The position numbers and the translations under genes are program-made. Shown here in pieces: positions 18,222-28,168 of a stretch of DNA of 64,000 bases. Each line of letters opens with the position of its first letter. The first letter of the stretch is position 1. The notes under the pieces are model-generated. The model saw only the letters and a program-made list of their open reading frames with translations. It made no database searches and was not told where the DNA came from. Source of the DNA: Bacteroidales bacterium (lineage in GTDB: Bacteria; Bacteroidota; Bacteroidia; Bacteroidales; Bacteroidaceae); assembly GCA_012517855.1 (NCBI GenBank), contig JAAYUD010000067.1:62001-126000 (forward strand), written 5' to 3'.

Positions 18222-19928
18222 TTACCAATAAGGATTGTTTTTACACAATTTATTATTTGCTGTTTCCGAGGTTGGCAACGAAAAGTAATAGTATTTATCA
18301 AGGAATACACGAGTACCTCCACCATCACAATCTACTTTGTCGTAAGTCATAGTACCTGTGGCAGAATCTCGTGTAATTTTAACTCCATGTGCATTCTGTC
18401 CGTTTATTACGTTGCCTGCAAGTTTCCATCTACGTAAATCCCAATAACGGAAACCCTCACCAGCCAACTCTACGCAACGTTCTTTGCGAAGCAAAGACAT
18501 AAATGCATCAACATCCGGAGCATCTGTGATGGTCTTATCAGGTAAGCCTACACGATGACGAACTTCATTAAGTGCGTCAAGAGCTTTCCCACTATTGGTT
18601 GCATAATCAAGCCTTGCGTATGCCTCAGCTTTGTTCAATAGTACTTCTGCGTAACGAAGTACAGCATCGTATTGCCAGCTGCCATCATTAACAAAGCTTG
18701 TATTACCTTCTTGCAAATATTTGCGTATATAGTAACCGGTCGGTGTATGTCCATTTGTTGATCCTGCTTGCGAGAATGCTACAAATCCATCACTACCACC
18801 AACATAAGTTTGAATGTCACGACCTTCCCACTTGCAACCATTGTATAGAATTGTTGCCTTGAAACGTGGTTCTCTATCGGTATATGGATTTGTATGGCCA
18901 TTGGCTTCATATGTCGACCAATTGAAGTCAGAACCATCACTGAATTCGTACATATCTGCCAATTCTGCAGTAGGTACATGTTCAGCATAAACTGCAGTGC
19001 TGTATACTGCGCCATCACCAAAAGGACGATTGTATAAATCATAATTATGAATCAAGCTGCCTTTTTGATAATACAAAGCAAAAAGGATCTCACTCGAATT
19101 GTCTTGCCCTCCATCTATTTGGAATACCTTGGCATAATCTGGAGCTAAAGCACCACCCAGTTCTTTTACTTTCTCTGCTGCATCAATAGCAATTTGCCAT
19201 TGGCCTGCATAAAGAGCCATTCTTGATAAAAAACCGTATGCTGTTTTTTTTGTTGCTCTACCATCCCAAGATGATGGCCAAGTTTCTGGCAGTTTTTCAG
19301 CAGCCCATTGTAACTCTGAAATCACATAATTCCAACTGTCGGCTTCTGAAAGTCGTGCTCGATTAATATCGCTTTTGTTATCACCGTTATCAATACCACC
19401 ATTTGCACCAGACACATCCGTGCGTAGTACGATACCACCATAAACGCGAATCAAACGATAGTACGAATATGCTCGACATAAACGAACTTCAGCGCGTCTG
19501 ATATCACACCAATCATTTCCAAATTTACTTCCATAGCGAGAGATATCTTCTAATGCTACATTTGCTCTGCGAATGCGGTAGTAAACATCGTCCCAACATT
19601 CAAATGCGCCGGCACTACCCGTTGCAAATGCACTTGTCTGCATTAAAGCTTTGTTATATGGATGGTTATATTGATCCCATGAAGTTGATTTTGTCAAATC
19701 CGAGAAACTATCATAGTATGCTCCACGACTATTCGCTACTTGTGATATGTCGGAAAACGTCTTATAAGAAGCTGTTATGTACATATCTGCAGACTCTTCC
19801 GTGTTCCATACTGCAAGATCCGAAATAGTAGTTGTATCATTTAAATTCAGCGCATCGTCATTACACGATGCCAATCCTAATCCAATAATGGCGAGAATTA
19901 GTGATATTTTTGTCTTTATATTTTTCAC
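18222..19928 (-). CDS. SusD/RagB-family nutrient-binding outer-membrane lipoprotein
   Basis: The 568-residue protein has a lipobox at GLASC (Cys22), the SusD N-terminal TPR part (DVYYRIRRANVALEDISRYG; YSYYRLIRVYGGIVLRTDVS) and the C-terminal RagB/SusD signature (YAEVLLNKAEAYARLDYA; LRKERCVELAGEGFRYWDLRRW). SusD acts as the lid on the SusC barrel and captures oligosaccharides. It begins 17 bases after susC, so they are co-translated partners. Confidence 0.95.
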   Translation of the reverse strand: MKNIKTKISLILAIIGLGLASCNDDALNLNDTTTISDLAVWNTEESADMYITASYKTFSDISQVANSRGAYYDSFSDLTKSTSWDQYNHPYNKALMQTSAFATGSAGAFECWDDVYYRIRRANVALEDISRYGSKFGNDWCDIRRAEVRLCRAYSYYRLIRVYGGIVLRTDVSGANGGIDNGDNKSDINRARLSEADSWNYVISELQWAAEKLPETWPSSWDGRATKKTAYGFLSRMALYAGQWQIAIDAAEKVKELGGALAPDYAKVFQIDGGQDNSSEILFALYYQKGSLIHNYDLYNRPFGDGAVYSTAVYAEHVPTAELADMYEFSDGSDFNWSTYEANGHTNPYTDREPRFKATILYNGCKWEGRDIQTYVGGSDGFVAFSQAGSTNGHTPTGYYIRKYLQEGNTSFVNDGSWQYDAVLRYAEVLLNKAEAYARLDYATNSGKALDALNEVRHRVGLPDKTITDAPDVDAFMSLLRKERCVELAGEGFRYWDLRRWKLAGNVINGQNAHGVKITRDSATGTMTYDKVDCDGGGTRVFLDKYYYFSLPTSETANNKLCKNNPYW

Positions 19929-19945: not shown

Positions 19946-22900
19946 TTAAAATGTTACATTTACTCCTAGGCTATAGGTTAATTGTTGTGGATAATATCCG
20001 TTACTTACAGATGGACTTTCTGGGTCAACATATTTGAAATGACTGAGTGTAAGTAAGTTCGTACCGGCAAGATAAATATTGATACGACTGAAAGGTGTTC
20101 TCTTTAACATACGATCAGGCATTGTATAACCAATTTTGAGATTTTTCAATCGGAGATATTCTCCATTTACAACCCACCATGACGAACGCCAAGCATTATT
20201 TCCATTGTCTATAGTCGAAAGACGAGGATATTTGGCATTCGTGTGTTCCGGAGTCCATGCACCCTCAATTAAGTAATAAGGTGAGTTACCACCTCCTGTG
20301 AATGGACTTGTGTAGGTTGTACATGAAGTTACACCACTATTATAGACACCTGATAATTCGTAATCACAATGGGTTACCCCCTGCCATAACATCGAAAAGT
20401 TGAAATTCTTATAAGTCAGTTCAAAATTCATCGAAAAGTTTATTTCAGGAATGGGACCATAACCAATCTTCACATAATCGTACGTTGATGTAATCAAACC
20501 ATCTCCATTAACATCCCGATATTTAATATCACCTAAACGAATAGTACCCGATGGAGCTGTGGTGTAATTATCTATTTCCTGTTGGGTTTGAAATAAGCCT
20601 ACGGCTTGGAATCCATAACGAGCATTCATGGGTTTACCCAGAATTCCACGATAATTGGGATAGTTATCGGTTACAGCCATTTTTAATACACGGTTACGAG
20701 CATACGAAAAACTACCGGATATATTGTATGTCCAATCTTTATTGATTCGATTGTAATGTTTTAATGTAATTTCCAGTCCACGATTGTCTACTTCTCCCGT
20801 ATTACTCTGACTCGGATAATAGCCACCTAATGAAGAAGGATAATTTCCACTACTTCCTTCCAAAATATTTTTATTTAATTGGTAAAACACATCTATTTCG
20901 CCGCTTAATAAATGGTTCCAAAGATCAAATTCAAATCCTAAGTTATAACTTTTTGTTTTCGACCATGTCAAGTTGCGATATATATAATCGTTTGTTGTGT
21001 AGAATTGTGACAGTGGAGCTCCACCAAAAACCATACTATTGTTTGCAATGCCAAAAGTCGAGTTATACAAATATGGGCTTGCATCACAATTCCCAGATTC
21101 ACCATAGCTGGCGCGAATTTTAAAATAATCCACAAAGGGCAATATCTTCTTAAAGAAATTTTCTTCTGAAGCTACCCATCCAAGTGATACGGAAGGGAAG
21201 AATCCCCATCGGTTTTCAGGTGCAAAGATATAAGTGCCATCACGACGGAAAGACGCCTCAGCGAGATATTTCATATCATAGGCATAATTAATACGACCAG
21301 CCCAAGATGCTTGACCACTATAGGCATATGATCCGCTCACTGGATTAGCAGGGAATGTGGTACCAAGTGATAAGTCTACAGGGTCATCACTGTAATACCC
21401 ACGTTTTATTCCTGTCATTGTATTAGAGTACGTTTTTTGAGCTTCATAGAAAAATAATGCACTGATATGATGTTTATTAAAATCTCTTGAATAGTCAACT
21501 TGTGGACGAACTAACCAAGTATCACCCCATGATGAAGATTTTGTATAAGCACCACCTTCTGTATATCCACTTGCGCCAACGATATTCTCGTCAAAAGTAT
21601 TGTTGATAGAATACAATTGATAATATCTATCATAATTAGAATCTGTTGTATGGCTATAATTGTATGCTCCGAAAAATGAGACTTTCAATCCTTTCAATAT
21701 ATTCGTCAAATCAGAAAAATCATATTCCAACTTATAGTTAGAATCGAAAGCCCACCGCGTTTGGCGTTGATATCCCGAATTCATCAATGCGGCATATCCA
21801 TTTACATAATAAGTTGCTCCTTGCCATGCGGTTGGTAATCCTTTATATTCATCTTTGATAATTGGAATAGAATTTACAGCTTGTCGTACGGGATCAAATT
21901 CTGCTTGGTCCCCAATTGCTGTACCAGGATAGTCCCTATCTGTACGATAAGCAGATAAATTAGTTGTAAACTTTAAATTCTTTACAACTTGAATATCCAA
22001 ATTAGTCCGGACATTATAACGCTTAAACAGAGTATTCTTCAATGTGCCTTTTTGATCCATATAACCTAAACTGGCAAAATACTTATTTTTGTCATTACCG
22101 CCTGAAGCCGAAACATTATGCTGCTGGGTTTCACCGGTATGAAATATTTTATCAATCCAATTAGTCTGTCCCCATATACTGTTAGGGTCATTATTCATGA
22201 CTTTATTTTGAATATCGGCTGTCCAAAGAGGTGTTAATCCATCCATTTGGCGTGCTTTGTTGTTCCAGTACATATAGTCACCGGCATTTAAGTATTTTGG
22301 CATCGCTGTGTTTGCTGTCAATGTTACTGAACCGTCATAGGCTATTTTAGCCGGTCCGTTAGCTCCCGATTTAGTAGTAATCAATATTACCCCATTAGCA
22401 CCTTGCACACCATAAATAGCTGCCGAAGCATCTTTTAGCACCGAAATACTTTCAATATCATTTGGATTGATATAATCGAGTAGCCGTTGCACACCATCGA
22501 TTATTATCATAGGGCTATTACCTCCACTGCCGAACGTATTCAAACCACGAACATACAAAGCCGTACCATCACCACCAGGCTTACCTGATGATTGAATACT
22601 AGTCAAGCCTGTTACTTTACCAGTCAACAAATTTGACACGTTCTGCATTGGAGCTTCCATCAATTCTTTTGATGAAACTGACGCCACAGAACCTGTCAAA
22701 GTTGCTTTCTTTTGAGTACCGTAACCGACAACAACGACTTCATTAAGTTGCTGGGCATTTTCTTTCATAACGATGACAAAATTCTGCTTATCTTTAGTGT
22801 TGATAAATCGTTCTTCATAACCAACATACGATACTTGCAATACACCATCCGAAGATAAATCCATTTCAAATTTACCATTAATATCGGTTATTGTCTTAGC

Positions 22901-23377
22901 AGAATTACCGCTTACAGATACATTTGCACCGATAATTGGCATACCCGATATATCTTTCACTACACCACTGATTCTTTTCTTATCATTGGCAGGAGCATTA
23001 CGCCTAATCTGAACAAGGGAATTCTTTCTCAGCATAATATTCTTCCCTTCCATGGCATAATCAATATCAGTACCTCTAAGAATCGCATCCAACACCTCAG
23101 CAACACTGCAATTACGCATATTCACATTAACTGACTTGCCTAGATTTATATTCTTAGCATTAAAAACGAATAGATAATCTGTTTGTTTTTCGATAGAAAG
23201 AAGCACTTTATTAATCGAAATATTATTTGCTACAATAGTCACTTTTCTTGATTGTGAATAGGTTTCTGTAGCAAACATAGTACCAACAAACAGGAATAAG
23301 GCTAACACAGAGAGCTTCATAATTCTCAAAAATAGTTTAAATTCTACAATAGAACTTTGATACAAAATATTTTTCAT
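19946..23377 (-). CDS. SusC/RagA TonB-linked outer-membrane transporter with STN domain
   Basis: The 1143-residue protein has a long signal region, an STN domain (about 44-120; VTIVANNISINKVLLSIEKQ), a carboxypeptidase-regulatory-like domain (about 136-190), a TonB plug with NEVVVVGYGTQKKATLTGS, and a barrel ending in a phenylalanine as expected. The STN domain talks to the FecR anti-sigma factor, matching the sigma/FecR genes upstream. The protein imports glycan fragments into the periplasm, powered by TonB. Start is ATG at 23377. The first bases overlap a candidate antisense promoter (see 23391-23482). Confidence 0.95.
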   Translation of the reverse strand: MKNILYQSSIVEFKLFLRIMKLSVLALFLFVGTMFATETYSQSRKVTIVANNISINKVLLSIEKQTDYLFVFNAKNINLGKSVNVNMRNCSVAEVLDAILRGTDIDYAMEGKNIMLRKNSLVQIRRNAPANDKKRISGVVKDISGMPIIGANVSVSGNSAKTITDINGKFEMDLSSDGVLQVSYVGYEERFINTKDKQNFVIVMKENAQQLNEVVVVGYGTQKKATLTGSVASVSSKELMEAPMQNVSNLLTGKVTGLTSIQSSGKPGGDGTALYVRGLNTFGSGGNSPMIIIDGVQRLLDYINPNDIESISVLKDASAAIYGVQGANGVILITTKSGANGPAKIAYDGSVTLTANTAMPKYLNAGDYMYWNNKARQMDGLTPLWTADIQNKVMNNDPNSIWGQTNWIDKIFHTGETQQHNVSASGGNDKNKYFASLGYMDQKGTLKNTLFKRYNVRTNLDIQVVKNLKFTTNLSAYRTDRDYPGTAIGDQAEFDPVRQAVNSIPIIKDEYKGLPTAWQGATYYVNGYAALMNSGYQRQTRWAFDSNYKLEYDFSDLTNILKGLKVSFFGAYNYSHTTDSNYDRYYQLYSINNTFDENIVGASGYTEGGAYTKSSSWGDTWLVRPQVDYSRDFNKHHISALFFYEAQKTYSNTMTGIKRGYYSDDPVDLSLGTTFPANPVSGSYAYSGQASWAGRINYAYDMKYLAEASFRRDGTYIFAPENRWGFFPSVSLGWVASEENFFKKILPFVDYFKIRASYGESGNCDASPYLYNSTFGIANNSMVFGGAPLSQFYTTNDYIYRNLTWSKTKSYNLGFEFDLWNHLLSGEIDVFYQLNKNILEGSSGNYPSSLGGYYPSQSNTGEVDNRGLEITLKHYNRINKDWTYNISGSFSYARNRVLKMAVTDNYPNYRGILGKPMNARYGFQAVGLFQTQQEIDNYTTAPSGTIRLGDIKYRDVNGDGLITSTYDYVKIGYGPIPEINFSMNFELTYKNFNFSMLWQGVTHCDYELSGVYNSGVTSCTTYTSPFTGGGNSPYYLIEGAWTPEHTNAKYPRLSTIDNGNNAWRSSWWVVNGEYLRLKNLKIGYTMPDRMLKRTPFSRINIYLAGTNLLTLSHFKYVDPESPSVSNGYYPQQLTYSLGVNVTF

Positions 23378-23384
23378 ATATTTG
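23356..23384 (+). promoter_or_regulatory. Candidate promoter of an antisense RNA at susC start
   Basis: On the plus strand TATATTTG (23377-23384) matches the Bacteroidales -7 box exactly, with TTTG at 23356-23359 17 bases upstream (slightly short of the usual 19-21). It points away from susC, towards the hairpins at 23427-23476. The start of transcription would be near 23391. Confidence 0.45.
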
Positions 23385-23390
23385 TAAGTG

Positions 23391-23482
23391 AGATTTTAAG
23401 TTTAACTTATGATTTTTTACGAACCGGCCAATCTTTATTGGCTTTCAGGCGGTTTGATGTTGCAGCATCAAACCGCTTTTTA
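23391..23482 (+). ncRNA. Candidate small antisense RNA in the FecR-SusC gap
   Basis: The 148-base gap between fecR and susC has two hairpins in a row: GCCAAT/ATTGGC (23427-23442) and a perfect 11-base stem GCGGTTTGATG with complement (23449-23476). The second is followed by TTTTT only on the plus strand, so it is a terminator for plus-strand transcription, not for the minus-strand fecR. Together with the promoter above this predicts a transcript of about 90 bases opposite the susC leader. Bacteroides PULs with ECF-sigma/anti-sigma control are known to have such antisense RNAs (DonS in B. fragilis). Ends are estimates. Confidence 0.5.
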
Positions 23483-23525
23483 CTTTATTATTTCTATCTC
23501 ATAGGCAGAATATTTTATTCAATGG

Positions 23526-24467
23526 TTAATTAATTATTATAAGCTTATTATCTTCATCATAGGTATAAGAGAACTTATTATCGAGTTTAAGTACATTCAG
23601 TACGTGCTCTATGCCATCTCCGATACGAAATTTTCCTGTATAATATTTATTTATCATTCGACTATTATGAACAATGATCTTTACATCATAATATAGCTCC
23701 AACTTATGAACCATTTCATGTATTGAAAGATCGGTAAAGCAAAGCAGGCCTTTTCTCCACATAAACTCATTATCATCGCTAATCACCGTTTTACGCAATC
23801 GAACTCCATCTAAATAGCCTACATTATTAGGTTTCAACATCATCTTTTCAACTCCAGATCTATCGGTTATTTTTACACATCCATTAAGTAATGACGTTTT
23901 CCACTCTTTGTCAGTAGGATATGCAATGACATTGAATTCGGTGCCCAACACTTTAATATTATATCGGTTTGTCTGCACTATGAAAGGTTTTTCCTTGTTT
24001 TTTGAGACAATAAAATAAGCTTCTCCTTCCAATTTTACCCTTCTGTATTTGCCTATAAACTTATTCGAATAAGTCAAGCGGCTACACGAATTAAGCCAGA
24101 CATGGGTCCCGTCCGGCAAATGAATTTCGGTACGCTGCCCGGCAGGAGTATAGACACTCTGCAATAATTCTCCCGACGTCGAATCCTTGCCATTAAACCA
24201 TAGATAAGAGAACGAAAAAGCGATAGCCAGCAATGCCGCGATCTTCAATATCTCTCGAAGTATTATCTTAGCAGGCCTTTTTCTATTACTCAATAATTCG
24301 TCTTTGCCGAAATCAGGGGTTCGCCACAATGCTATATCATAAAGTTTGCGCTGAGCCATGTATTCTCTGCGGTTCTCATTGCTTGCGTTTATCCATTTCA
24401 CAACTAATTCTGTTTCATCAATATTCGCATCGTCAGAAATGTACTTCTGTAACAATTCAGTATTCAT
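23526..24467 (-). CDS. FecR-family anti-sigma factor of the PUL
   Basis: The 313-residue protein has a short cytoplasmic N-terminus, one membrane helix (KIAALLAIAFSFSYLWF), a FecR domain (GQRTEIHLPDGTHVWLNS; LEGEAYFIV; VLGTEFNVIAYPTD) and a DUF4974-like C-terminal domain. It holds the ECF sigma factor inactive until the SusC STN domain signals that substrate is being taken up. A longer frame opens at 24506; I prefer MNTELLQKYISDD at 24467 because it matches the family's beginning. The gene lies 70 bases after the sigma gene. Confidence 0.93.
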   Translation of the reverse strand: MNTELLQKYISDDANIDETELVVKWINASNENRREYMAQRKLYDIALWRTPDFGKDELLSNRKRPAKIILREILKIAALLAIAFSFSYLWFNGKDSTSGELLQSVYTPAGQRTEIHLPDGTHVWLNSCSRLTYSNKFIGKYRRVKLEGEAYFIVSKNKEKPFIVQTNRYNIKVLGTEFNVIAYPTDKEWKTSLLNGCVKITDRSGVEKMMLKPNNVGYLDGVRLRKTVISDDNEFMWRKGLLCFTDLSIHEMVHKLELYYDVKIIVHNSRMINKYYTGKFRIGDGIEHVLNVLKLDNKFSYTYDEDNKLIIIN

Positions 24468-24537
24468 CTTGTCTTTGGCCTTTATATAAAAACGATTTAA
24501 AAACAAATCTCCCTAAAAGAAAGATCAAAAAAATCAA

Positions 24538-25089
24538 CTATATAAATAGAAAAAAGAAAATAGGAAGATAATCTTTCAAAGCCACCCTTAAAACTTTGAG
24601 TGTTTTAGTAATGTGATATTCCACACTTTTTATCGAAATATTCATCGATTCGGCTATCTCTTTATTCGATTTGTTTTGAAAACGGCTCATCATAAACACA
24701 TCACGAGTCTGAGGAGGCAATAATTTTAAAGTGGAATTTACAATAGACTCCACTTCACCAGAAAATATATCGTAAGGATTGCATTCTTCCAAAGAACATA
24801 TACGAATAGAAAGATCATACTCTCTCCAACTTTTAATTTCCTCTAAAGCGGCACGCTCCACTTCTTGATGTTTAAGAAAATCGAGAGCTTTATTTTTCAA
24901 AATAGTCAATAAAAACGGAGCTATTGGATTTATTTCCCTTTGTTTTAATTGCTCCCATAATTTTATTAAAGATTCTGAAACGATGTCCTCTGCAATGCTT
25001 TCATCGTGAACATAAGACTTCACAAAATAAAAAGCCTTTTTATAATGGGTATTATATATATCGGTGAATGTTTTACTATTAGAGTTCAT
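24538..25089 (-). CDS. ECF RNA polymerase sigma factor controlling the PUL
   Basis: The 183-residue sigma-70 family protein has region 2 (TFTDIYNTHYKKAFYFVKSY, then SIAEDIVSESLIKLWEQL) and region 4 (LPPQTRDVFMMSRFQNKSNKEIAESM, then SVEYHITKTLKVLR). A longer frame opens at 25188, but the extra residues are hydrophobic and unlike the family, so MNSNSKTF at 25089 is taken as start. With FecR and the STN-bearing SusC it forms a trans-envelope switch. It is the first gene of the PUL. Confidence 0.93.
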   Translation of the reverse strand: MNSNSKTFTDIYNTHYKKAFYFVKSYVHDESIAEDIVSESLIKLWEQLKQREINPIAPFLLTILKNKALDFLKHQEVERAALEEIKSWREYDLSIRICSLEECNPYDIFSGEVESIVNSTLKLLPPQTRDVFMMSRFQNKSNKEIAESMNISIKSVEYHITKTLKVLRVALKDYLPIFFFLFI

Positions 25090-25189
25090 CTTACTATAGT
25101 GCAGTGATTCTATTTTACAAAAGAACAATAATATTTTAATAAAACCAAAGAAAGATATAATTATTGAAAATAATTTCTTCGAGAGCAAT

Positions 25190-25696
25190 ATTTATATATT
25201 ACAATATACAAAAAAACACTTCCATTATCAGTCATATCAGTTCTTTCCCTAGAATGTTTTATATTAAAATTTAAAGTATTAGGTATTATTCATAACTCAG
25301 ATATATTTTTCTCTCGGTATTAAAATAATTCAAATTTATTTTTTACCAATAAGAATTTTAATGACGTCCTTGTTTTGAAAACAAATGAAAAAATATGTTT
25401 TAAAGAAAATACCATCTTTAATGCAACTTAATGTTTTAACCTGAATAATTCATAGCCGACACTCTGTCGTAGATAGTTTGCACAGGAAGTTTGTATTACA
25501 ATGTGCTACCGTGATTGAATCGAGCTTTATAGGTCACGCTTTATGCTTGTCGATAGTGACTTATTACGAGGCTAAAGGTACTAAGCGAATCACTGAACAG
25601 AAATTAGCCCCAGACAATTGCTGATTGTTAGGGGCTACTATTCATCTCTGATTCTCGTTATATCTTTGTCTTCCTATTGACAAAGTAGAACTTCAT
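25190..25696. other. Gene-poor stretch before the PUL regulator, with a strong hairpin
   Basis: No complete gene seen. A 61-codon plus-strand frame without a proper start runs to a TGA near 25624 (ending EQKLAPDNC) and may be a remnant. A hairpin TAGCCCC/GGGGCTA with inner pairing CAAT/ATTG lies at 25604-25636; on the minus strand it follows the SNF2 stop codon and is followed by TAATTTCTG, so it may end that transcript. A TGACGTCCTT motif lies at about 25362. Confidence 0.4.
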
Positions 25697-28168
25697 TTAT
25701 TTTTTGTTCAGCATTCTGCCGATAAGTCCTAACATCTGTACAACAGTCTCTTTGTTAGTTACTGGAATTTTAATATTGGTTTCTCCTGTTTCCGGATTAT
25801 CTTCCACAATTCGGTTGATTAGTTCCTGAGTTGCCGTGGGGGATTTCAGTGTCTCTGTTAACATGGTGAAGAAGGATACTCCTTGCTCTATGAGCTTATC
25901 TGGCTGGAGTGTATGTTCCTGATGAGGTGGTAAATCATGTCCTTCTTTGGTATTGACAGAGGGTGAATCATCCGGTTGCTGTTCAAACAAGGGATCAAAG
26001 TCGTAATGAGTATTTGTATCCTTAGTAACTTTAGATTCCTTTTCATCCTTATCGATAGGTGGTATTTCATCTTTGGTCTCATTTTCGGCTGGCTCTTTGA
26101 TGGTTTCGCTCAACTCTTCCATTATCTTTTGGAACTTATTGCCTTTGGTAAAGATGGTATCCTCGCCACCATCAAGTACACCTTCGAACATGGAAGATTT
26201 AAACTTAAGTTTGCCAAGCATGCTTTCTTCAAAAGTACGCATTGAAATCAAATTAATGACTTGAATATTGCGTATCTGCCCTATTCGATAAATGCGGGCA
26301 ATACGTTGCTCCAGGGTAGCAGGGTTCCACGGTAAGTCCATATTGATGATGATAGAAGCAGCTTGTAGGTTGAGACCCGTACTTCCCGCATCAGTGGCAA
26401 GGAATACACGGCTGTCTGGCAAATCCGTGAAATTATTGACCAAATCTTTTCGTGCTTTGGATGGTATGCCTCCGTGTAAATATTCATAGCGAATACCTTT
26501 TTGGTCCATTTCTTGGGCGATTAAGCGAGTCATACGTTCCCACTGACTGAAAACGACAATTTTTTCTTCTCCACTTTCTACGATATTGCTAATGATGTTC
26601 ATTACTTCTTCGATCTTGGTATCAAAACGTGTCTTCTGATCCAGGATGTAAGTACTGTCACATACCATACGCATTTGTTGGAGCAATAAAAGAAGTCTGT
26701 TACGGTCGGCCTCCGAAAGAAAGTGCATTTTTTCCCACTTCTGAAGCAAACGGGATACATGAGCATTTGCTTCGTCGTGTATTGCCATTTGTTCCTTTGT
26801 CATTGGTACCATAAGATTCTTGTCCTGTCGTGCAGGCAGCTGAAGCTTCACTTCTTTTTTACGGCGGCGTATCAGATAGGGCTTGAGGCGTTGTCCGATT
26901 TCATTTAGATTTTGGTAGCCTATTGTTGCGCCTTTGCTGTCTAAGATGATATAGCGGTTACGGAATTGATAATAAGGTCCCAAGCAAAATTGGTTTACGA
27001 GTTCCATAACAGAGTAGAGTTCTTCTAATCGATTTTCCAGGGGAGTACCAGAGAGGATAACAGCATATTGCGAATTTATTTTTCTGGCGGCTTTTGCTAT
27101 TTGTGTATCCCAGTTCTTCAAACGTTGTACTTCATCGATGATGACCATATCCGTTTCCAAATACCCGAGAGCTTTGATATCGTTGCATACAGCGTTGTAG
27201 GAGATTATCTTGTAAGGTTCAGAAGTGTTGTATTGTTCTTTGCGCTTCAGGTGGTTGCCTTCAATTACATGAACCTGTTGTCCTGTGAAGCGCTCTATCT
27301 CTCTCTTCCATTGATATTTCAAGGACGTGGGACATATTATTAATGTAGAATTCACAAGCCCTTTCTTTCTCAGCAGTTCTGCTGTACCTATTGCCTGGAT
27401 GGTTTTACCCAATCCCATCTCGTCGGCAATGATAGCCCGACCGGCTTTGGCTGCGAAGCGAATACCCTCTTCCTGATAAGGATAAAGGCGAGCCTGGAGT
27501 AAATCTTTGAAATCTTTGTTAGTCAATGCGTCAATCCAACGGATGCGTTCTTTGCGCTCTCGATGTTCTATCACAAATTGCAGTGCGTCTCTATAACAGC
27601 GAAAGGTGTCGTCAATCTTACGAGCTTTCTTTAAAAATGTATCGAAACTTTCAAATGAATTCTCTTTCAGAACAAACTTATCGTCAAAAAAAGAAGATGC
27701 CAGTTTTGTAAACGCCTCCTCGTTGTCTCCTCCAATTCGAATACGAACTTTTCTTTCCGCAGTATAATCGAGATAAACAGAAGAATAGGGAGGTATTTCA
27801 CGGTGGACATGATGTTTACGAAGCCATGGCTTTAGAGCTTCCAAATGCTTGCAAGTTCCCAAACGGGAGGTTTTAAAATCTAAGCACGAGCAATAGTTCC
27901 AAGGGCTTCTTGCACCACGGTAAACAACCTTATATTCTTGATTTGTCTTAGGATTTTTTACTTGATATTCACCTGGAGCCCTTTTCTCGTCAATACATTG
28001 GATAACGAGTTTCTCCTCTTGCGCCACTTGTTTGCGAAGCAGTATTTGCCAAGTTTTCAAATCTAGATTTCCAGGCTTATATTGATAAGGGATTTTTTTT
28101 GTTTGTTTTTTCTTGAAACTGCCTTTTGCGGATTTTCTATTCTTCATGTATTCATTCTGTTTGGGCAT
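25697..28168 (-). CDS. SNF2-family helicase with N-terminal SWIM zinc finger
   Basis: The 823-residue ATPase has a SWIM zinc finger (Cys93, Cys95, Cys106, His108), then a SNF2 motor: Walker A DEMGLGKT at 249-256, Walker B IIDEVQRLKN at 343-352 (DEVQ where most have DEAQ or DEAH), SGTPLEN, and a helicase C lobe with DAGSTGLNLQAA and QRIARIYRIGQ. A charged tail follows from about 690. SNF2 proteins translocate on double-stranded DNA and remodel protein-DNA complexes; the bacterial RapA group acts on RNA polymerase, but the SWIM type is of unknown role. It stands alone, with a palindrome repeat upstream. Confidence 0.92.
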   Translation of the reverse strand: MPKQNEYMKNRKSAKGSFKKKQTKKIPYQYKPGNLDLKTWQILLRKQVAQEEKLVIQCIDEKRAPGEYQVKNPKTNQEYKVVYRGARSPWNYCSCLDFKTSRLGTCKHLEALKPWLRKHHVHREIPPYSSVYLDYTAERKVRIRIGGDNEEAFTKLASSFFDDKFVLKENSFESFDTFLKKARKIDDTFRCYRDALQFVIEHRERKERIRWIDALTNKDFKDLLQARLYPYQEEGIRFAAKAGRAIIADEMGLGKTIQAIGTAELLRKKGLVNSTLIICPTSLKYQWKREIERFTGQQVHVIEGNHLKRKEQYNTSEPYKIISYNAVCNDIKALGYLETDMVIIDEVQRLKNWDTQIAKAARKINSQYAVILSGTPLENRLEELYSVMELVNQFCLGPYYQFRNRYIILDSKGATIGYQNLNEIGQRLKPYLIRRRKKEVKLQLPARQDKNLMVPMTKEQMAIHDEANAHVSRLLQKWEKMHFLSEADRNRLLLLLQQMRMVCDSTYILDQKTRFDTKIEEVMNIISNIVESGEEKIVVFSQWERMTRLIAQEMDQKGIRYEYLHGGIPSKARKDLVNNFTDLPDSRVFLATDAGSTGLNLQAASIIINMDLPWNPATLEQRIARIYRIGQIRNIQVINLISMRTFEESMLGKLKFKSSMFEGVLDGGEDTIFTKGNKFQKIMEELSETIKEPAENETKDEIPPIDKDEKESKVTKDTNTHYDFDPLFEQQPDDSPSVNTKEGHDLPPHQEHTLQPDKLIEQGVSFFTMLTETLKSPTATQELINRIVEDNPETGETNIKIPVTNKETVVQMLGLIGRMLNKK

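Follow-up and report, generated by a model that had tools for sequence, protein, structure and literature searches.

In the window, by which we mean the whole stretch of DNA analysed (64,000 nucleotides of contig JAAYUD010000067.1, part of a 3.64-Mb draft genome of a Bacteroidales bacterium), the gap between fecR and susC very probably carries a DonS-type cis-encoded antisense RNA gene that would silence leaking susC mRNA, a reading to which comparison with other loci leads us to assign a probability of about 0.8. The kind of RNA is already known, and the candidate of the window is another member of it.

The PUL around the candidate RNA is an ordinary one, lies on the minus strand and comprises genes for an ECF sigma factor, FecR, SusC with an STN domain, SusD, a DUF5018 protein, GHL10, GH97 and a phosphoesterase, so that the ECF sigma/anti-sigma pair of DonS-type loci is present. 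The fecR-susC gap is 148 bp long, and its plus strand holds a box and a hairpin. The features discussed below are as follows.

18222-19928, minus strand: susD homologue
19946-23377, minus strand: susC homologue, the presumed target (STN, carboxypeptidase-regulatory and Plug domains)
23377-23384, plus strand: putative antisense -7 box TATATTTG of the sigma-ABfr type, TAnnTTTG (from the sequence)
23389-23482, plus strand: predicted antisense RNA, about 93-94 nt (start from the box at -12..-5, end from the T-run)
23427-23442, plus strand: small hairpin GCCAAT-CTTT-ATTGGC within the predicted antisense RNA (from the fold)
23447-23478, plus strand: intrinsic terminator hairpin, core 23449-23476, apical loop TTGCAG, T-run 23477-23481 (from the fold and a terminator scan)
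23500-23527, minus strand: putative ECF-type promoter of susC, AACC (23527-23524), 17-nt spacer, GCCTATG (23506-23500) (motif match; promoter role inferred)
23526-24506, minus strand: FecR-type anti-sigma factor (Pfam FecR and FecR_C)
24538-25188, minus strand: ECF sigma factor (Pfam Sigma70_r2 and Sigma70_r4_2)

An earlier note on this DNA had placed a plus-strand box at 23377-23384 over the susC start, and TATATTTG was indeed found there, its first T being the complement of the A in the susC ATG (23377-23375, minus strand). The note had also described a strong hairpin with a T-run on the plus strand only, which held: the hairpin at 23449-23476, GCGGTTTGATG-TTGCAG-CATCAAACCGC, is perfect and is followed by TTTTT (23477-23481), and on the minus strand there is no T-run after it. 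The fold of 23385-23485 has a stability of -33.9 kcal/mol (z = -6.3), which was equalled by 0 of 200 shuffles, and the hairpin was the sole long-stem terminator (14 pairs) in a generic scan of 22500-26000, an interval that showed no excess of terminator-like sites overall (2, against a shuffle mean of 1.7). With the box spacing of -12..-5 taken from the available part of PMC9723704, the RNA would start at about 23389 and run for ~94 nt to 23482, in agreement with the transcript of about 90 bases that the note had predicted for the gap and, by position and orientation, antisense to the susC mRNA as it had proposed; the predicted transcript is complementary to the susC leader from -12 to about -105.

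In the available portions of the papers that describe their features (PMC7366714, PMC10994844), DonS-type PUL antisense RNAs are 78-128 nt long (PMC7366714), and 10, later 32, such RNAs were counted in B. thetaiotaomicron (PMC7366714, PMC10994844); for B. fragilis, antisense RNAs are reported for 15 PULs (PMC9723704). DonS is described as repressing its PUL (PMC7366714, PMC11697453), by a mechanism termed unknown in 2025 (PMC11697453). The predicted RNA of the window resembles DonS and the PUL cis-antisense RNAs of B. fragilis and B. thetaiotaomicron in lying opposite the 5' region of a susC homologue, in belonging to a PUL with an ECF sigma/anti-sigma pair, in a predicted size within 78-128 nt, in a box of the sigma-ABfr type and in an intrinsic terminator; the likeness is one of described features. 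The note's assignment to the DonS type in a PUL with ECF-sigma/anti-sigma control is supported by this comparison, as position, orientation, predicted length, box, terminator and FecR context all fit.

A single TAnnTTTG box in AT-rich DNA would be unremarkable alone, and a -33 element (TTTG) showed no conservation over 45 loci. We turn to the register of the box on the start codon. In the window's own genome 57 susC-like places were examined: 24 lie directly after a FecR gene and 31 are of other types; one at a contig end (L064), with part of its upstream region visible, was counted to give 25 of the FecR type, and one that had no upstream DNA (L074) was dropped. An antisense TAnnTTTG whose first T coincides with the A of the ATG was found at 12 of the 25 FecR-type susC genes and at 0 of the 31 others; at L058 the register falls on the second in-frame ATG. 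By eye, the antisense strand of all 12 in-register genes shows a hairpin of terminator type, and by score (>30) that of 10 of the 12 does, compared with 0 of the 13 out-of-register FecR-type genes and 1 of the 31 other susC genes, the two low scorers (L032 and L064) having stems that appear bulged.

Five further genomes contained 79 FecR_C matches, from which 10 inside SusC proteins were set aside; SusC directly follows in 61 of the 69 examined. The box was in register in 19 of these 61 FecR-SusC gaps, and an antisense terminator scoring >30 accompanied it in 17 of the 19, compared with 7 of the 42 other gaps. Five of these seven terminator-bearing gaps without TAnnTTTG carry, by eye, TAnnTTTA in register (L226, L231, L249, L257 (G482) and L280 (G547), mostly as TACTTTTA), possibly a lineage-specific promoter variant. 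When the box was allowed as TAnnTTT[AG], 14 of 23 gaps of Bacteroides fragilis S82 were in register, 12 of the 14 with a terminator, and one additional gap had a terminator and no box; B. cellulosilyticus had 5 of 12 gaps in register, all five with a terminator (2 of 25 FecR genes in the former and 3 of 15 in the latter lack a SusC directly downstream). The S82 count of 14 plus one is close to the 15 PULs in the available part of PMC9723704, a match of number and not of locus identity. Three gaps, L302 of S82 and L259 and L269 of G176, have strong antisense terminators and no recognisable in-register box, and perhaps use another promoter type.

Pooling the 121 FecR-SusC gaps of these eight genomes, which were unselected by motif, we found that 46 carry TAnnTTTG exactly on the first in-frame ATG (offset 0), while all other offsets within -100..+80 together held 21 boxes, none of them more than 2. 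The window and the SusC loci contain 288 ORFs of 200 aa or longer; 50 of these had an in-register box, and all but one of these were the SusC starts used for choosing the loci, so that the background is about 1 in 239 other ORFs. What is beyond chance is the combination of box and terminator and its register, not the single elements. The module is absent from most FecR-SusC gaps and is thus not required for ECF-sigma/FecR control.

On the sense side, the AACC of the ECF-like motif touches the fecR stop codon. A strict regular expression for this promoter was present at 8 of the 12 in-register susC genes of the own genome, and AACC-N14-17-GCCTATG reached a score of 9 or more out of 11 in 34 of 55 modules that had been chosen independently of it; the same score was reached by 3.9% of shuffles and by 3 of 58 boxless FecR gaps, the 55 and the 58 being taken without a second check for SusC. 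Searched by itself in 60 genomes of the class and in 12 chosen ones, the promoter pattern gave too few matches for sampling gaps. The ECF-like promoter sits beyond the terminator of the antisense unit, so the predicted antisense RNA would span most of the leader of susC: if the motif is the susC promoter, the leader would be ~115 nt long, with ~94 nt of it covered by the RNA.

The pattern AACC-N14-17-GCCTATG-N100-130-CAAAnnTATG, which requires the box and the ATG and neither SusC nor a hairpin, was then applied to a collection of genome contigs and gave at least 118 matching stretches. Among the matches listed, 54 of 118 open a SusC; of these 54, 51 have FecR upstream, 47 have an antisense terminator (>30) and 0 a sense terminator, and the other 64 listed have 2 of each. 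The SusC matches among those listed come from Bacteroides, Parabacteroides, Tannerella, Dysgonomonas, Proteiniphilum, Draconibacterium and Flavobacterium, and further from Arenibacter, Euzebyella, Sinomicrobium, Sphingobacterium, Parapedobacter and Dyadobacter, genera that we take to represent the Bacteroidales, Flavobacteriales, Sphingobacteriales and Cytophagales. The pattern is rare in samples (7 of 301 family genomes and 2 of 296 phylum genomes), two of the seven family genomes having their matches at non-SusC loci of chance-like appearance (L085, L086); the reversed pattern gave 0 matches in the same family and phylum samples.

Over 109 distinct modules, 94 had a terminator score of at least 30, and the predicted RNA had a median length of 84 nt (68-128), that of the window being 93 nt. 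Hairpin sequences vary among modules while the pairing is kept. Among 201 family genomes, DNA similar to the gap occurred in only one besides the window's own, so that conservation does not extend to the sequence of the RNA; Rfam 15 gave no family match at the gathering threshold and chance-level matches only at a relaxed one, and a scan of the genome-contig collection with the FecR protein found no relatives. A peptide-coding antisense transcript is unlikely, an ORF of at least 15 aa being found in just 11 of 94 modules, and the idea that the modules share an RNA whose 5' portion is poor in C was dropped, as the G content of the sense leader is only slightly below that of other susC leaders (0.083 vs 0.106).

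The loops of the module hairpins differ from those of ordinary terminators in the same DNA. When each hairpin is counted as independent, with kinship uncorrected, apical loops of 6-7 nt are found in 71 of 93 module hairpins and 21 of 73 ordinary terminators, and loop ends T..G or C..A in 54 of 93 and 4 of 73, respectively; loop G+C is 0.61 vs 0.38, and that of the whole hairpin is also higher in modules (0.53 vs 0.42). These features suggest selection on the loop beyond termination, and GC-rich loops of 6-7 nt suggest loop-loop recognition. The plasmid antisense RNAs of the CopA/CopT and RNAI/RNAII pairs are fully complementary to their targets and have 6-7-nt G+C-rich hairpin loops thought to initiate pairing. 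The module shares both properties; it differs in its chromosomal setting in the control of nutrient uptake, and the U-turn motif (YUNR) showed no clear enrichment in module loops (39% of 94 vs 29% of 28).

The anatomy and conservation of the module are established by comparison; transcription, the direction of the effect, loop-first pairing and the override are what we infer from them. The housekeeping sigma factor would start the ~94-nt RNA near 23389, from a -7 box lying across the susC start codon, and the terminator at 23449-23476 would end the RNA shortly before the ECF promoter driving susC. As long as FecR holds the ECF sigma factor, the antisense RNA would pair in cis with leaking susC mRNA. 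First contact would probably be made between the GC-rich loop exposed on the terminator hairpin and its counterpart in the leader, and this pairing would block translation or trigger decay of the mRNA. Once sigma is released, strong sense transcription would cross the antisense gene together with its promoter, overriding the antisense RNA. The recurring fusion of promoter and start codon suggests how the RNA may switch susC off. Positive antisense-PUL correlations for some pairs in B. thetaiotaomicron, in the available part of PMC10994844, are a counterpoint to a uniform repressor role. The non-conserved -33 element, the U-turn motif without clear enrichment and the lack of the module in most FecR-SusC gaps also count against the reading.

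The main rival to leader pairing is transcriptional interference, in which face-to-face polymerases collide or the start region is occluded and the short RNA is a by-product. The two promoters do face each other ~120 bp apart, with the antisense unit stopping just before the sense promoter, as this account would have it; yet an antisense unit that terminates before it reaches the ECF promoter leaves that promoter unoccluded, and interference alone needs no loops that differ so strongly from those of ordinary terminators, so that we regard it as unlikely, if a serious contender. The hairpin might instead be a 5' structure of the susC mRNA, stabilising or protein-binding, with the plus-strand T-run a coincidence. 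The sense leader would, by its sequence, fold the same hairpin; however, among the matches listed the T-run is on the antisense side at 47 of 54 loci and on the sense side at none, and the hairpin co-occurs with the antisense box, which makes this account improbable.

Finally, CAAAnnTATG could be a translation-start context of susC and no promoter, the hairpin merely keeping stray antisense transcripts from running into fecR. In its favour, start regions in Bacteroidota are rich in A, and box and start codon coincide exactly; but a start context should hardly be missing from the 31 non-FecR susC genes of the own genome and nearly so from the 239 other ORFs, or occur jointly with a terminator, and we consider this account very improbable.

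Beyond the single locus, it is conceivable, at somewhat less than even odds, that ECF-sigma/FecR PULs share a Bacteroidia-wide antisense module in which the -7 box is set into the susC start codon at a fixed register, the RNA extends along most of the leader as far as the ECF promoter, and a G+C-rich loop of 6-7 nt is specialised for loop-loop recognition, so that each PUL has its own insulated off-switch. The FopS and GibS sRNAs of B. thetaiotaomicron are likewise short and terminator-ended and target susC starts, and differ in being multicopy, about 65-70 nt long and equipped with a shared R1 seed that targets several PULs, as given in the available part of PMC11697453; the window RNA is cis-encoded and its sequence varies from PUL to PUL. 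The literature searched, whose coverage did not extend to Cao et al. 2016, holds no mention of the start-codon register, the ECF promoter motif, the loops or the module outside Bacteroides, and all of these may already be in print; the flavobacterial paper PMC9723704, in its available part, merely suggests studies of such RNAs there. The layout of the module, in which a promoter overlaps the start codon, the RNA covers most of the leader and the loops are special, yields testable predictions, and its register is a simple rule for finding such RNAs by sequence beyond Bacteroides, in soil and marine Bacteroidota.

Three minor observations concern individual loci. In Prevotella cerevisiae DSM 100619 (L185) the module, FecR and terminator are present and a stop codon closes the frame of the in-register ATG after 12 codons, so that susC is either broken or has a different start. 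Two loci with module and SusC (L109, L179) lie in a MAG labelled Chlorobiota, which is either a mislabelled member of the Bacteroidota or a case of transfer. In the window, ~19 susC codons (23318-23377) precede a second in-frame ATG at which a canonical signal peptide (RIMKLS...) starts, and a similar N-terminal extension is seen in many in-register SusCs.
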